A DNA stretch of 63,658 bases from positions 1 through 63,658 of the forward strand of contig JAFLVA010000006.1 in NCBI GenBank assembly GCA_022508525.1. The letters are read 5' to 3'. This document shows, piece by piece, positions 51,984 through 58,694 of the stretch (its first letter is position 1; every line of letters starts with the position of its first letter). The stretch comes from Erysipelotrichales bacterium (GTDB lineage: Bacteria > Bacillota_I > Bacilli_A > RFN20 > CAG-826). The notes beneath the pieces are model-generated. The model did no database searches. It was not told where the DNA came from and saw nothing but the letters and a program-made list of their open reading frames with translations. A program made the position numbers and the translations under genes.

Positions 51984-53219
51984 ATGGCAAACGTACTATT
52001 AATTGAAAGTATTATTAGCAAAGAGGATATTACATATAAGCATCTTGAAATGCTTGATCTTTTAAAAACGCTTGAAATAAGTCCAACTCATTTTGTAAAA
52101 CAAGAATTAATAGAGCCATATACTAAAACTTATTTGGGCTCAGGAAAAGTTCACGAAATACACGAATTAATAATTGAACAAAACATTGATTTAGTAGTAT
52201 GTAACTTTGATTTATCTCCAGTACAATATATGACTTTAAAAGATGCATTTGACATTGAAATTCTTGATAGAACAGGTGTAATTTTGCAAATTTTCTCAAG
52301 AAAAGCTAGAAGTAAAGAGGCTAGATTACAAGCGGAAATTGCTAATCTAAAATATTTAAAATCTCGACTTGTTGATAAAGAAGCAAACTATTCTCAAGTT
52401 ACAAGCGGTGGTGGATATCGCAATAAAGGTTCCGGAGAAAAACAAATAGATTTAGATCGTAGTAAATATAAAGTCCTTCTTAAAAGAAAAGAACTTGAAT
52501 TAGAAAAACTTGTCACTCAAAGAAAAAATAACCGCAATAATCGATCAAATTTGCCAATCATGGCAATTGTGGGATACACAAATGCTGGAAAATCCACCTT
52601 GTTAAACCAACTGCTCAAAAAATCAAATACTAAGGAAAGTAAAAATGTTATTCAAGAAGATAAACTATTTGCAACTCTTGAAACTTCCACACGTCTTATT
52701 GATATCTATGAATACCCATATTTTCTATTAACAGATACAGTTGGTTTTATATCCAATTTACCTACTATGCTTGTTGAAGCATTTAAATCTACTTTAGAAG
52801 AAATATCTGATGCCGATTTATTAATACATGTAGTTGATGTATCTAATCCTAATTTTATCGAACAAATAAAAGTTACAAATTCAATATTAAAAGAGTTAAA
52901 TTGTGAAAACATTCCTACTATTTATTTATATAACAAGCTCGACAAATGCAAATCTATTCCATTTATTCCTAAAAGAAATGAATTGTTAGTTTCCATGAAT
53001 GATTCGGATGATTTAAAACAAATATTAGATCTTATTTTTAACGAAATAAAAGAAAAATGGGATTACATAGAATTAATGGTCCCATTTAGCAAAAATGTAT
53101 ATATGATAAAAAAATACGGATTTGTTGAAAATTTAGAAATGATAGAAGACAAATTTATTGTTAAGGGCTATTTCCCAACTTATCATATGAAATACATTAA
53201 ATCACTTTTAGATGATTAG
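51984..53219 (+). CDS. hflX: Ribosome-associated GTPase HflX
   Basis: A 411-residue GTPase. The N-terminal HflX domain (THFVKQELIEPYTKTYLGSG; FDLSPVQ) and linker with RSKEARLQAEIANLKYLKSR lead to the G domain: G1 GYTNAGKST, G3 DTVGF and G4 NKLD. HflX splits stalled ribosomes. It starts 2 bp after the ABC-F stop, so two ribosome factors share an operon. The last 23 bp overlap the convergent kinase gene. Confidence 0.92.
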   Translation: MANVLLIESIISKEDITYKHLEMLDLLKTLEISPTHFVKQELIEPYTKTYLGSGKVHEIHELIIEQNIDLVVCNFDLSPVQYMTLKDAFDIEILDRTGVILQIFSRKARSKEARLQAEIANLKYLKSRLVDKEANYSQVTSGGGYRNKGSGEKQIDLDRSKYKVLLKRKELELEKLVTQRKNNRNNRSNLPIMAIVGYTNAGKSTLLNQLLKKSNTKESKNVIQEDKLFATLETSTRLIDIYEYPYFLLTDTVGFISNLPTMLVEAFKSTLEEISDADLLIHVVDVSNPNFIEQIKVTNSILKELNCENIPTIYLYNKLDKCKSIPFIPKRNELLVSMNDSDDLKQILDLIFNEIKEKWDYIELMVPFSKNVYMIKKYGFVENLEMIEDKFIVKGYFPTYHMKYIKSLLDD

Positions 53220-53736
53220 TGTATAATTCATAAACTTTTTGTGCCATATCTAGCAAAGTTAAATGTTCACTATCGATGACATAATTAACTTTGCTTTTTA
53301 TTTCTTGAGAAAATTTTATGCTATCGTTAGCGATTCGTGACTTTGCGTTTTCAATTGAATCTCCACGGAGGAGCATTCTTTCAAAACGTGTTTTTTCATC
53401 TGCCTCAAGAAAGAAAGTTACGATATGCGAATTATTTAATGCAAGGAAAGAATCTAATCCAGCTGGATCGACAATTAATGCCTTATTATCTCCAATTTCT
53501 TTTTTTGATGATCCATAGTAATTTCCGTTGTAAAATGTTGTTTCCACAAAAGAATCATCGGCTTTCAATTTTAAAAAATCTTCTTCGGAAACAAAATGAT
53601 AATCAACATCCATTACCTCAGATTTTCTTATTGGTCTTGTCGTATGAGTAACAACTTTTTTTATGCTATATAAAACATTCAAAAGTTTAGCCACTTCCGT
53701 TTTTCCACTTGCAGAAGCCCCTACTAAAATAATCAT
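53197..53736 (-). CDS. Guanylate kinase-like protein
   Basis: A 179-residue P-loop kinase: GASASGKTEV at the start, THTTRPIRKSEVMDVDYHF like the GMP-binding TTRxxR of guanylate kinase, and a lid-like RFERMLLRGD. It is shorter than typical Gmk (~205) and has S instead of the second glycine at GASASGKT, so GMP specificity is likely but not sure. The gene is convergent with hflX and overlaps it by 23 bp. Another gmk may exist elsewhere. Confidence 0.75.
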   Translation of the reverse strand: MIILVGASASGKTEVAKLLNVLYSIKKVVTHTTRPIRKSEVMDVDYHFVSEEDFLKLKADDSFVETTFYNGNYYGSSKKEIGDNKALIVDPAGLDSFLALNNSHIVTFFLEADEKTRFERMLLRGDSIENAKSRIANDSIKFSQEIKSKVNYVIDSEHLTLLDMAQKVYELYTNHLKVI

Positions 53737-53867: not shown

Positions 53868-54236
53868 ATGGAAACATCAAATATGGATTGTATCCCATTC
53901 AGTGAATTATATCGTGGGGTAAAAGAAATTTTTGTTCAAATAAAAGGTATGAGAATAAAACATTATCAAAATCCAGAAGAAATAAATATTGTCTTTAAGG
54001 AAGGTGAGGAAAGTTATAATTATTTAAAAGAACACTCAACAGAACAAAATAAAATACTTTTTAATGTCCATCAGGCATTATTTTCATTAGAAGAGGAAGA
54101 ACGCAAATTAATAATCGGTGAGTTTTATAACACTAGACCATTATGGTGGATGGAATACTATTCACGGAGCACTTATTATCGTAAACAAAGAAATGCCATG
54201 AAATTGTTTCTTTATTTTTATAGGTGTGCATTATGA
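53868..54236 (+). CDS. Small regulator-like protein heading the Tad-like operon
   Basis: A 122-residue soluble protein. The C-terminal part (GEFYNTRPLWWMEYYSRSTY then YRKQRNAMKLFLYFYR) looks like a sigma-region-4/ArpU-type helix-turn-helix. The first ~75 residues are helical (acidic, with EEINIVFKEGEESYNYL). Starts from ATG after GGAGGGATTTAA. The stop overlaps the next start (ATGA), so it belongs to the operon of secretion genes. A transcriptional role is only suggested. Confidence 0.6.
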   Translation: METSNMDCIPFSELYRGVKEIFVQIKGMRIKHYQNPEEINIVFKEGEESYNYLKEHSTEQNKILFNVHQALFSLEEEERKLIIGEFYNTRPLWWMEYYSRSTYYRKQRNAMKLFLYFYRCAL

Positions 54237-55195
54237 TAAAAAAATTAGTTCTTGTTTTTACTATACTTCCTTATGCAATACCGACAGTCAAAGCAAATAG
54301 ATTTAAGGACATTTATATTACACCAATCTCAGATAACACTATAATCAGTTTTTCATATGTGGTTGGTCTTACAAGCGAGGTAAACTTTTCCATTTATATT
54401 GAATATCAAAATGAACCACGCAATTATTTATATAGCAATAAAGTTAATATTACTTTTAACTTTTCAGACGAATTTTTACTTTTTAAAGAACACGTAAAAG
54501 AAAATTCATATTTGGTTTTCGAAGCCAAAAGTAGCAATAGCTCATCTTATATAAAATTTGACTTAAAAACGCAAAATAACAATCACAATTTATTGGAGCA
54601 AAGCACCTTCTATTTAGAAGATGCTATACAATATATTGATGATCGAGAAACAATTCATTATGCAAATGAAACAATTGAATTTAACGACTTAAGTGGCGAA
54701 TTAGACTTAACGCTTCCATATTTGTTCTATGATCATATTTGCTTTACTAAAAGCTCTTATTTTTTTCAAGAGGAATTGCCAATCGAAAAAATTGTTATGA
54801 AAATTTCAGACAAAAACAATATTTTCCCTCTTTTAAATCATGAAGGAGACTATGCGATTGTTAATTTTGAATTAACTAATAAAAATGATAGATATTTTTT
54901 ATCTTTGTTAGATAAAATCTATGTCTATAACGATTCTTTAATTTTATCAAGTAGTCCAAAAGAAGGCTTTGTTCGAACGAGTTATTTATATATACCAAAA
55001 AATTGCTCAGAAACTGAATTTGAAATAACATTTTGTTTCAAAAATTTAGGTATACAAAAACTAAATTGCTATTATCGCTATATCTTACATAGAAAAAAAA
55101 GATATGTAGGCGGTTGCTCTACTTCACTTAACTGCGTAAAAATTGATGAAAGTAATAATTATTTTGACACAAATGAAACGGAGGTATTAGTGTGA
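54233..55195 (+). CDS. Secreted protein of the Tad-like operon
   Basis: About 320 residues from the ATG at 54233 (AGGTG site). N-terminal signal peptide (MIKKLVLVFTILPYAIPTVKA). The rest is beta-rich, with a basic RYILHRKKRYVGGCS tract before the end. No membrane anchor other than the signal is visible, so it may be exported or held by the pilus machinery. It overlaps both neighbours (ATGA upstream, GTGA downstream). I do not recognise the family. Its position suggests a surface or assembly component. Confidence 0.6.
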   Translation: MIKKLVLVFTILPYAIPTVKANRFKDIYITPISDNTIISFSYVVGLTSEVNFSIYIEYQNEPRNYLYSNKVNITFNFSDEFLLFKEHVKENSYLVFEAKSSNSSSYIKFDLKTQNNNHNLLEQSTFYLEDAIQYIDDRETIHYANETIEFNDLSGELDLTLPYLFYDHICFTKSSYFFQEELPIEKIVMKISDKNNIFPLLNHEGDYAIVNFELTNKNDRYFLSLLDKIYVYNDSLILSSSPKEGFVRTSYLYIPKNCSETEFEITFCFKNLGIQKLNCYYRYILHRKKRYVGGCSTSLNCVKIDESNNYFDTNETEVLV

Positions 55196-55557
55196 TAATA
55201 TTTTTAACCGTAATATGTTTGTTTTCTTTTTCACTGATAAATTTCACAAACACAATAACTTATCATTCGATTGATCAAAGATTTTATTCAGCTTTAAAAA
55301 GTTCAGCAGAAAACTCCATTGTCTACTCTGGAGATGTAATCTATTTTGATAAATATAATTTAAATCAAAAATTGAACGAGCTATTAAAGCGCGAATTGAA
55401 AGACATTGTTAGTGAAAAATACTATGTCTACATTAACTATAACTATAGTGATGGAACAGCATGTAGCTATAGATGCAAAAATGTTAATATACGCCTAAAA
55501 GTATATATTTCTACAACCGCAACATATGACAAAGCGTATGAACTTATGATAGGGTGA
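55192..55557 (+). CDS. TadE-like minor pilin/pseudopilin
   Basis: A 121-residue protein from a GTG start with GGAGG upstream. One N-terminal hydrophobic helix (~1-22, IIFLTVICLFSFSLINF) followed by a soluble extracellular domain with two cysteines (TACSYRCKN) that could bridge. This matches TadE-like minor pilins that prime assembly, but there is no clear processing site. It is followed by the ATPase gene 4 bp later. Confidence 0.55.
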   Translation: MIIFLTVICLFSFSLINFTNTITYHSIDQRFYSALKSSAENSIVYSGDVIYFDKYNLNQKLNELLKRELKDIVSEKYYVYINYNYSDGTACSYRCKNVNIRLKVYISTTATYDKAYELMIG

Positions 55558-55561
55558 TAAT

Positions 55562-56533
55562 ATGAACGATAAATTATATGACTTCTTTTTTAATTCATTT
55601 TTAAATCCATTATTAAGTGATAACGACATCACAGATATTTATTACAATGGCAAAGATTTTTTTTATTTATCAAATAACAAGGGCAGACAAAAAGCGAATA
55701 TATCTGCAAACCAAGAATATATTTATAACTTTATTCGTCAAATTGCCAATATGTCCGAAAAATTATTTTCAATTTCAAATCCGATACTAGACGTATCAAT
55801 TCAAAACTTTAGAATCAATGCAGTGCACAGTTCCATTTCAAGAAAAAAACATGAAAAAGTCATTACTTTTGCCATTCGAAAAGCAAATAACACTTATAAT
55901 GTAACGTCAATTTTGAAAAGATTACCCAAAAAAATACTTAGATATTTTAAAAAGGCACTTTCTGAAAAACAATCCATTATAATATGCGGCAATACCGGTA
56001 GTGGAAAAACCGAATGGCAAAAATATCTTATATCATTAATAGAAAAAAATTCACGATTAATTGTCATCGATAATATTGAAGAATTATCAATTATGAATAA
56101 CGATCAATTGGACATAACATTTTGGCAAGTTGATGAAAATAGTAATCATATTGATTTAAATGGTCTAATATCCAATTCACTTCGCTTCAATCCAGATTGG
56201 ACTATAATTGCAGAATCACGAGGAAAAGAAATGAACGCAATTTTGACATCTGTCTTAACAGGTCATCCTATTATTTTAACAATGCATGCAAAAAATTTAG
56301 ATCTTTTACCTGCTAGAATTATGCAAATGATTTTGCAAGATGAATCAGCAATTCGTAATACTGAAATACTCGAACGAGATATATATTCCGCTTTCAATAT
56401 TGGTGTACATCTCAAAGTAGAAAAAAGCAGAGGAAAAATTATTCGTTATATTGATGAAATAAAAGAATTTTATCCTGACCAAACAACAAAAATCATTTAT
56501 AAATATGAAAGGAAATACAAGAAATTAAAATGA
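55562..56533 (+). CDS. CpaF/TadA-like secretion ATPase
   Basis: A 323-residue VirB11/GspE-type ATPase. Walker A GNTGSGKT at 143-150, Walker B LIVIDNIEE, then FNPDWTIIAESRGKEMNAIL, where the family has DxxxxGExRG, and the His box ILTMHA. It lacks the usual N-terminal extension (typical CpaF is 400-500 residues), so it is a short form. It would power assembly or secretion with the two TadB/C-type proteins that follow. Overlaps the next gene by 4 bp. Confidence 0.82.
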   Translation: MNDKLYDFFFNSFLNPLLSDNDITDIYYNGKDFFYLSNNKGRQKANISANQEYIYNFIRQIANMSEKLFSISNPILDVSIQNFRINAVHSSISRKKHEKVITFAIRKANNTYNVTSILKRLPKKILRYFKKALSEKQSIIICGNTGSGKTEWQKYLISLIEKNSRLIVIDNIEELSIMNNDQLDITFWQVDENSNHIDLNGLISNSLRFNPDWTIIAESRGKEMNAILTSVLTGHPIILTMHAKNLDLLPARIMQMILQDESAIRNTEILERDIYSAFNIGVHLKVEKSRGKIIRYIDEIKEFYPDQTTKIIYKYERKYKKLK

Positions 56534-57216
56534 TATTTTCAATATGTTGCAGTATTTTAATTTTCGTTTTGCTTTATTTAACGACTGGCCTTTTTAATTA
56601 TAGCATTATAGGTGGAATATTAATGCTTCTATATGGATCTTTATATGCGAATAAAGTAATAAAAAAATATATTGATTCTCAAAGATTAGTTACAGAATGT
56701 GCAAATTTTATAAACACCTTTATTATCTCTTTAAGCATATCTAATTCTTTAGAAATGAGTTACAAAGATGCCACAACAAAGATTTCCAAACAAATGGAAA
56801 AAGCGATTAAGCAAAAATGTAAATCTCTTGATGTATTAGATAATCTAGAAATGTTACAAGAATATTTTAAATCAACTAATTATGCCGTTTTTTTGAACAT
56901 TTTAAAAATGCATATAAATAACGGAGGTAATATCTTGGAAATGTCTGTAAATTTGCAATTAGAATTACGTAGAAAAGAGGAAATTGTTAATTCTATAAAA
57001 CAAATTAACAATCGAAAAATCTATGAATTTTTTACACTGTGGGCTTTTTGCTTAGCAATAATATTATTTTGCAGATTAGGTTTAAACAATATTTATGCAA
57101 TGATGCAATCATATTTTTTGTTCAATTACGAAATTATATTCTTTTTTGCCTTTATGGTCTTTTCATTCCATTTGTTTATTTCTAGTATTACAAATTCAAT
57201 TAAGAAGGTGATATAA
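56530..57216 (+). CDS. TadB-like inner-membrane platform protein
   Basis: A 228-residue membrane protein of the T2SF type: two N-terminal helices, a cytosolic four-helix region (CANFINTFIISLSISNSLEM ... GNILEMSVNLQLELRRKEE), then two C-terminal helices. In Tad systems TadB and TadC form the inner-membrane base that works with CpaF. It starts inside the ATPase gene end and the next gene starts on the base after its stop. Confidence 0.72.
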   Translation: MIFSICCSILIFVLLYLTTGLFNYSIIGGILMLLYGSLYANKVIKKYIDSQRLVTECANFINTFIISLSISNSLEMSYKDATTKISKQMEKAIKQKCKSLDVLDNLEMLQEYFKSTNYAVFLNILKMHINNGGNILEMSVNLQLELRRKEEIVNSIKQINNRKIYEFFTLWAFCLAIILFCRLGLNNIYAMMQSYFLFNYEIIFFFAFMVFSFHLFISSITNSIKKVI

Positions 57217-57885
57217 ATGCCAAAATTAAAAAATAAAATACTTGCGTTAGAACTAAATTATAAAAAAGAATCAACAAAAATCATCGCAGTAAGTATATTT
57301 GTTTTTTTGATATCAGTTTTCCTGTCTTACTATTTAAAAATGTATTATTTATCTCTTATCGGTTTAGCAGCAATTTTTATAGTAATAGAAATATTTAGCT
57401 TATACTATGACAAAAAATTAAACCAATTAATGCGTCAAAACGAGACTGAATTCGTTGTAATTCTAAACTATATTCAAACTTACTTACATAATGGTTTTAA
57501 TGTCTACAAATCAATTGAAGCAACTATCCAATATGCCTCTCCGTGGATGCAAAACAAATTAGGAATTCTTATTACTGAAATTGACAGCGATAAAACTATT
57601 GCACCATTTATTAATTTTTCACATTCTTTTAACTCGCCAATAATTGAGCAAGTAATGATTTCATTATTTCTTATGATTGAAAACGGAACAAGCGACGAAT
57701 TTATTCTTCGTTTTGCACCAGTGTTCAATCAATTAGAAAAGGATAGTAAACATAAATTAGTAAAGCAAATAGAAAGTAAATTTGACACCTTAAATCTATT
57801 ACCTGTAGTAGGCTCGGCTTTAATCACATTACTAATTATTACCGGTGTAGTTGGATTAATAGGAGGTGCACTAAATGGCATCTAA
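57217..57885 (+). CDS. TadC-like inner-membrane platform protein
   Basis: A 222-residue T2SF-type protein: two helices near 20-60, the cytosolic segment VVILNYIQTYLHNGFNVYKS, and a final helix pair near 195-222 (VVGSALITLLIITGVVGLIG). The short TadB/TadC pair mirrors two-gene platforms of Tad pili. It overlaps the following gene by 11 bp. Confidence 0.72.
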   Translation: MPKLKNKILALELNYKKESTKIIAVSIFVFLISVFLSYYLKMYYLSLIGLAAIFIVIEIFSLYYDKKLNQLMRQNETEFVVILNYIQTYLHNGFNVYKSIEATIQYASPWMQNKLGILITEIDSDKTIAPFINFSHSFNSPIIEQVMISLFLMIENGTSDEFILRFAPVFNQLEKDSKHKLVKQIESKFDTLNLLPVVGSALITLLIITGVVGLIGGALNGI

Positions 57886-58216
57886 TCTAAGTCATATTTT
57901 GGCTTTATTTTTAGTTATACCTTTTATCCTTTTTTCAACTGATTTGATTGGTATTCAGGAAACTTACACAGAATTAGAAAACATAGCAACGCAAGTATCA
58001 TTTAAAATACAAAAGGCCGGATGTATAAGTGATGAATTAATTAATGAAACTTATCTAACATTTAATGCGTATCTAGAGAGTGATACAAATTCAAAACAGA
58101 ATTTTGGAGATTTAGTGGAGTTCTATATATATAAGTATTATGTAGGCAATTTTATCAATGGTGGAGAAACGCTTGTGCGAATTAAACGCACGGTGATGAT
58201 CGGATACATTGATTAG
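57875..58216 (+). CDS. TadE-like pseudopilin (second)
   Basis: A 113-residue protein: one N-terminal membrane helix (~8-25, ILALFLVIPFILFSTDLI) and a helical/extracellular part with ELENIATQVSFKIQKAGCIS, typical of TadE-like pseudopilins in Gram-positive bacteria. It lies between the platform genes and the small pilin, 12 bp before the latter. Confidence 0.55.
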   Translation: MASNLSHILALFLVIPFILFSTDLIGIQETYTELENIATQVSFKIQKAGCISDELINETYLTFNAYLESDTNSKQNFGDLVEFYIYKYYVGNFINGGETLVRIKRTVMIGYID

Positions 58217-58228
58217 AAAGGAGAAAAA

Positions 58229-58387
58229 ATGGGAGAACTTAAAGGACAAATTTTAGGCATCTTATTAGTGTTAATGGTTTTTGGCGGACTTATTACTGCT
58301 TATACAGCAGTATTTAACAATGCACAAACAACTATTACTACGCGTGCTAACAATTACATTAATTCTGAAACAATGCCAAATAGTTAA
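58229..58387 (+). CDS. Small Flp-type pilin-like protein (52 residues)
   Basis: A short open frame from ATG 58229 with GAAAGGAG 6 bases upstream. It reads MGELKGQILGILLVLMVFGG: a five-residue charged leader with KGQ, a possible prepilin cleavage site, and a long hydrophobic helix, then a short polar tail ending ETMPNS. This fits the size and form of Flp/class III pilins. It is the last gene before a strong terminator, where a highly expressed pilin could sit. Confidence 0.6.
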   Translation: MGELKGQILGILLVLMVFGGLITAYTAVFNNAQTTITTRANNYINSETMPNS

Positions 58388-58410
58388 AAAGGGGAAATTC
58401 CCCTTTTTAT
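58386..58410 (+). terminator. Terminator of the Tad-like operon
   Basis: AAAAAGGGGAA and TTCCCCTTTTT pair and a T tract follows, starting at the pilin stop. Confidence 0.85.
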
Positions 58411-58472: not shown

Positions 58473-58694
58473 ATGAATAAATTAGAAGAAATAAAAGTAA
58501 TGTTTGCTAAAAAAGTTAAAGTAGATGAATTAGATCCAAATGCCGAATTAAAATCACTTGGATTAGACTCATTAGATTTAGTTGAATTAATCATGGATAT
58601 TGAAGAACAATATGGTATAGAATTTGACAATGAAGAGCTTGTAGAATTCAAAACTGTTGGTGATGTTTTATCCGCAATTGAGAAAAAACTTTAA
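58473..58694 (+). CDS. acpP: Acyl carrier protein
   Basis: A 73-residue ACP. Ser33 in GLDSLDLVEL is the phosphopantetheine site; helix II then EQYGIEFDNEEL. I chose the ATG at 58473 (AGAGGT site); the longer upstream frame has no ACP content and crosses the operon terminator. It carries acyl chains in lipid synthesis. The gene is separate from the Tad-like operon, with its own promoter. Confidence 0.92.
   Translation: MNKLEEIKVMFAKKVKVDELDPNAELKSLGLDSLDLVELIMDIEEQYGIEFDNEELVEFKTVGDVLSAIEKKL

Follow-up and report, generated by a model that had tools for sequence, protein, structure and literature searches.

A Tad-derived operon of Bacilli that probably encodes a type IV filament machine with an uncleaved pilin

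The eight-gene operon at positions 53868–58387 of the window, the 63,658-nucleotide stretch of DNA analyzed here, is on balance best read as a Tad-derived type IV filament machine that works with an uncleaved pilin and displays a secreted protein. Both the function and the non-cleavage are read from the genes alone. In reviews, prepilin peptidase counts as a constant component of type IV filament machineries, Nanoarchaeota being the one stated exception among the phyla in which prepilins are found (PMC4471445), and prepilins are taken to be processed before they are assembled (PMC10191384). The absence of the peptidase is a true anomaly of the operon and holds across the order of Bacilli that carries it. 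Tentatively, we propose for the whole order a type IV filament machine run without prepilin peptidase, in which the pilin would lose at most Met1, Glu5 would have been lost in step, and the main task would be to present the secreted protein, not to build a long pilus. The fibre may thus be built in a previously undescribed way, and we found no account of this locus in the literature. A conserved intact machine, an order without the enzyme and matching changes in the pilin make the roles of leader cleavage and Glu5 directly testable, and uncultured gut Bacilli would gain candidates for both a surface organelle and an adhesin.

All eight genes lie on the forward strand and overlap or nearly abut, as the earlier note described. 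The first, reg (53868–54236), encodes a 122-residue regulator-like protein with a C-terminal domain of the MPN403/MG284 family; it matches NF045770 with an E-value of 4.5e-16 and 58.6 bits, over the curated cut-off of 37.3, and is conserved as gene 1 of the operon. It overlaps sec (54233–55195) in an ATGA, so the start of sec is most likely the ATG at 54233, giving a product of 320 residues. A GTGA overlap joins sec to the gene for TadE1 (55192–55557), a 121-residue pseudopilin-like protein with a single transmembrane segment. After a gap of 4 nt follows the gene for the 323-residue TadA/CpaF-type secretion ATPase (55562–56533), which shares an ATGA with that for the TadB-like platform protein (56530–57216, 228 residues). 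The TadB frame abuts that of the TadC-like platform protein (57217–57885, 222 residues), and the latter overlaps by 11 bp the gene for a 113-residue TadF-like pseudopilin (57875–58216). A spacing of 12 bp separates this from the last gene (58229–58387), which encodes a 52-residue pilin-like protein beginning MGELKGQILGILLVLMVFGG... and is conserved in all loci that reach its position. An intrinsic terminator-like hairpin, recognized in the forward-strand sequence at 58385–58409, ends the operon. A guanylate-kinase-like gene on the reverse strand (53197–53736; PF00625, 1.1e-18) and the acyl carrier protein gene acpP on the forward strand (58473–58694) flank it. These two form the usual frame of the locus; the former is in the same place in most loci, and an acpP-like gene is next downstream in 18.

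More than 30 other genomes, spread over several families of one Bacilli order, have these genes in the same succession, as the earlier note had required of its proposal. No extra conserved gene stands inside the locus among the loci compared. Between the genome of the window (G000) and a member of the same genus (G001), dN is 0.05–0.42 and dS, mostly near saturation, 0.9–2.1 across all eight genes. The kept order and a dN far below dS argue that the operon is not a chance arrangement. The pilin is 92% identical between the two genomes, with a dN of 0.05. sec evolves fastest, with 51% identity against 71–92% for the other operon genes, as expected of an exposed protein.

The ATPase matches PF00437 at 1.3e-18 and, in the PDB, CpaF at 1.9e-30 along with further relatives. 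Its best model alignments are to VirB11 and TadA, including TIGR03819 TadA at 4.8e-31, and lie under the curated cut-offs of those models. The Gly and Lys of Walker A, Glu218 and His242 are invariant in 33 relatives. The earlier note had remarked on the short ATPase and on a GExRG motif that reads AESRG, and had called both odd. Both observations are correct and neither is odd: 323 residues is typical of the clade, and relatives read GEARG, AEARG, AETRG, SEVRG and so on, with positions 1 and 3 varying around the invariant Glu218. In a tree the ATPases of the order form one clade against those of related Bacilli, with support of 99/96. This TadA is the sole secretion ATPase found in the G000 assembly (1.47 Mb in 52 contigs, 92% complete). 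The expected T2SF homology of the platform genes is borne out as well. TadC relatives match PF00482 (T2SSF) in 8 of 30 cases, at best with 2.3e-5. The TadB family gives a single weak match to T2SSF and is homologous to the TadC family in a profile–profile comparison (hhalign, E 1.4e-10); AlphaFold2 predicts TadB to be all-helical (pLDDT 93). A PDB fold search with TadB returned nothing significant, only a weak match to the cytoplasmic domain of OutF. The operon thus has, as a Tad pilus does, a TadA/CpaF-type ATPase and two single-domain T2SF platform proteins, of which TadB taken alone has the weaker evidence. With platform homology and kept order established, the minimal monoderm Tad-like system proposed earlier stands.

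The product of sec has an N-terminal signal peptide (by eye) and, in most members of the family, a C-terminal CxxSxxC motif. AlphaFold2 predicts an all-beta, beta-sandwich protein (pLDDT 88), for which a fold search returned only generic Ig-like and transglutaminase beta domains with low TM-scores. Homologues occupy the same slot of related operons; in a few loci the slot holds a similar-sized protein beyond the reach of the sec profile. This anatomy supports, at the level of sequence, a putative ATP-driven assembly machine ending in an exposed, fast-evolving secreted protein; its product may be a visible pilus, a short pseudopilus or a display platform. The TadE1 family is present in 36 of the 36 loci compared. 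Profile searches for TadE, which had been suggested earlier, gave a divided answer: TadE1 has no Pfam match, so that its name rests on position and layout, and the TadF-like protein matches PF16964 (TadF) in 5 of 30 relatives, at best with 2.5e-4. Such Pfam matches as appear for TadE1, the pilin and reg are at chance level. Residue 2 of the TadF-like protein is Ser, Gly or Ala in 32 of 32 sequences.

The earlier note saw no prepilin peptidase in the locus, and this extends to the whole G000 assembly, where neither PF01478 nor a clade-specific profile (A6), made for the most part from peptidases of the order itself, detects one. Among 155 genomes of the order that are at least 90% complete, A6 finds the peptidase in 6, with E-values below 1e-87 and then nothing credible, and PF01478 in the same genomes and one more, 7 in all; this extra hit, a sub-threshold 94-residue frame in G114, was not confirmed by A6. 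About 118 of the 155 genomes hold a TadA of the operon clade, counting strong matches only (127 minus 9 weak or PilB-type), and just three of these (G081, G082 and G121) also hold a peptidase. The peptidase genes of the order are part of an ordinary type IV pilus distinct from the Tad machine: on all six contigs a PilB-type ATPase lies close by and the Tad operon elsewhere, and in the five loci that were read (L068, L069, L071, L072 and L073) the neighbors are PilC-type or class-I prepilin genes. In Bacilli beyond the order, a related TadA is accompanied by a peptidase in 65 of 69 genomes. In some of these, which have another, longer TadA as well, the enzyme does not have to act for the related TadA system, and the peptidases of the relatives may be kept for other pili.

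The pilin differs at its N-terminus. All 32 pilins of the order start M/V-[SG]-E-[ILF]-[KN]-[GA]-[QTS], and none has an acidic residue at positions 6–24. They do not show the class III leader with Glu5(-Tyr6) of a Flp pilin, and no member of the family matches Pfam Flp; the 52-residue protein accordingly takes its name from layout and position. For comparison, 16 pilin-like proteins were picked by eye from loci with a peptidase in genomes outside the order; they start MK....E, with K2 and E7 in 16 of 16. The two sets align with an hhalign probability of 17% (E 0.0014) outside the N-terminus, and with homology this weak the pairing of E7 with Q7 rests on position. Type IV pilin Glu5 mutants are processed and do not form homopolymers (PMC4471445), which makes a pilin free of Glu in an order free of peptidase a coherent change.

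In the uncleaved-pilin reading, the pilin and the TadF-like subunit would insert into the membrane through their N-terminal helix and be used with no leader cleavage. Methionine aminopeptidase accepts small second residues; it would take off Met1 only, which is invariably followed by Ser, Gly or Ala. The usual Glu5 would be replaced by Gln, we propose, because there is no processed N-terminus for it to pair with. ATP-driven TadA would act on TadB and TadC and stack the pilin into a short filament, which would carry or extrude the secreted protein, the latter serving as an adhesin at the tip or on the surface.

It is somewhat unlikely that an unrecognized peptidase elsewhere in the genome, non-homologous or extremely divergent, cuts the pilin after Gly6 and that the system is otherwise an ordinary Tad pilus. 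The class III signal is a leader of 6–26 residues ending in Gly, with Glu5 often absent in archaea (PMC4471445). The K5-G6-Q7 of the pilin resembles it, and MSEIKG|Q can be read as a six-residue leader of this kind, which such an enzyme could cleave. Against this, both profile searches confine A24 peptidases to genomes that carry a type IV pilus apart from the Tad operon, the locus has no further conserved gene to supply the enzyme, and 5 of the 32 pilins have Ala as residue 6, although Gly-1 is reported to be critical (PMC4471445).

Two sister families in the order, f3 and f4, hold a reduced form of the locus. By hhalign it keeps reg, sec (E 9e-13), TadE1 (2e-9), one platform protein (about 1.5e-5) and the TadF-like protein (1e-10), and neither ATPase nor pilin was found in it. 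This motorless form is seen in L107 (G035), L127 (G047), L111 (G061), L128 (G052) and L108 (G036). Loss of motor and pilin in these families would make presentation of the secreted protein, and not a long pilus, the basic task of the locus. The same loci suit a reading with no filament at all, in which TadE1, the TadF-like protein and the platform would tether or present the secreted protein at the membrane, with ATPase and pilin as an add-on for regulation or release. It is also in keeping with such a reading that 13 of 14 f3/f4 genomes have no T2SSE match over cut-off, the fourteenth having a fragment of 70 positions. We regard it as unlikely: where ATPase and pilin occur, their conservation is strong, and the f3/f4 form may be degenerate.

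The filament machine proposed here is closest to the Tad/Flp pilus (T4cP; TadA-TadB-TadC-TadE-TadF-Flp1-TadV). They have in common the TadA-type ATPase, the split TadB/TadC platform, a small one-helix pilin, candidate TadF- and TadE-like pseudopilins and a single operon. Unlike the Tad/Flp pilus, the genome has no TadV or any other A24 peptidase, the pilin has no Glu5 and no Pfam Flp match, and the operon adds reg and the secreted beta protein. The operon also has no CpaB, and no TadZ (by the ORF list and a profile search) or secretin (by eye) turned up in the locus. To our knowledge the secretin RcpA belongs to diderm Tad systems only, and it is not expected in a monoderm. Lacking both the peptidase and a Glu5 pilin, the system is a variant and not a standard Tad member. 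The Tad-like loci of f17, f20, f25, f9 and f13 share a related short TadA (E 1e-51 to 1e-87) and TadC, several with a TadF-like protein; they differ in coming from the families with a peptidase in 65 of 69 genomes, in a SAF/CpaB-like gene added in several (by eye) and, in f17, f20 and f25, in pilins that start MK....E. In f9 the gene that follows TadC encodes a 122-residue A24 peptidase (L147:3603–3971), and this locus is a peptidase-bearing cousin of the operon. In f13 (L148) the TadE/TadA/TadB/TadC-like genes adjoin what seems to be a conjugative element, with a gene for a PrgI-like protein (by eye). Archaella and archaeal type IV systems are likened to the operon by FlaI, a matched relative of its ATPase, and by pilins often without Glu5 (PMC4471445); they differ in other gene content. 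Archaeal systems have a prepilin peptidase.

Of the functions first suggested, surface attachment and export of the 320-residue protein are both candidates. Competence was the third, and Flp-type pili are described as replacing ComG in Micrococcus luteus (PMC4322843). A DNA-uptake pilus in place of ComG is improbable here. ComEC is detectable in 105 of the 155 order genomes, but not in G000 or two other scanned members of the genus, and several genomes, such as G030, G010, G103 and G164, have ComEC and no operon ATPase, so that ComEC and operon show no clear pairing. A ComG pilus proper does not fit G000 either, where the single T2SSE ATPase is TadA-type and ComEC has no match. That the operon is a decaying, non-functional remnant is very improbable, for despite its patchy presence in the genus (no ATPase was found in G002 and G003) all eight frames are intact and under purifying selection, the catalytic residues are invariant and the whole operon is kept across the order. 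In an attempted empty-site comparison, the neighboring GTPase gene was not found in G002 or G003 either.

The frame of reg and acpP recurs in code-4 Mollicutes (L120–L122, L125, L126, L133, L136, L137 and L139–L145), in what we take to be the MG284 region. There reg is followed by genes for proteins of about 375 and about 140 residues, the latter with one transmembrane segment, and then by acpP; unlike the operon, the two genes between include no ATPase, platform or pilin. No link was found between the 375-residue protein and sec or TadE1. The 140-residue protein resembles TadE1 weakly (E 0.0009–0.004, with a reversed control at 0.097), and we claim no homology. In other families of Bacilli reg stands outside any Tad locus (L112, L113, L114, L117 and L118) and so is not Tad-specific; in L113 and L114 it lies directly before a ptsI-like gene.
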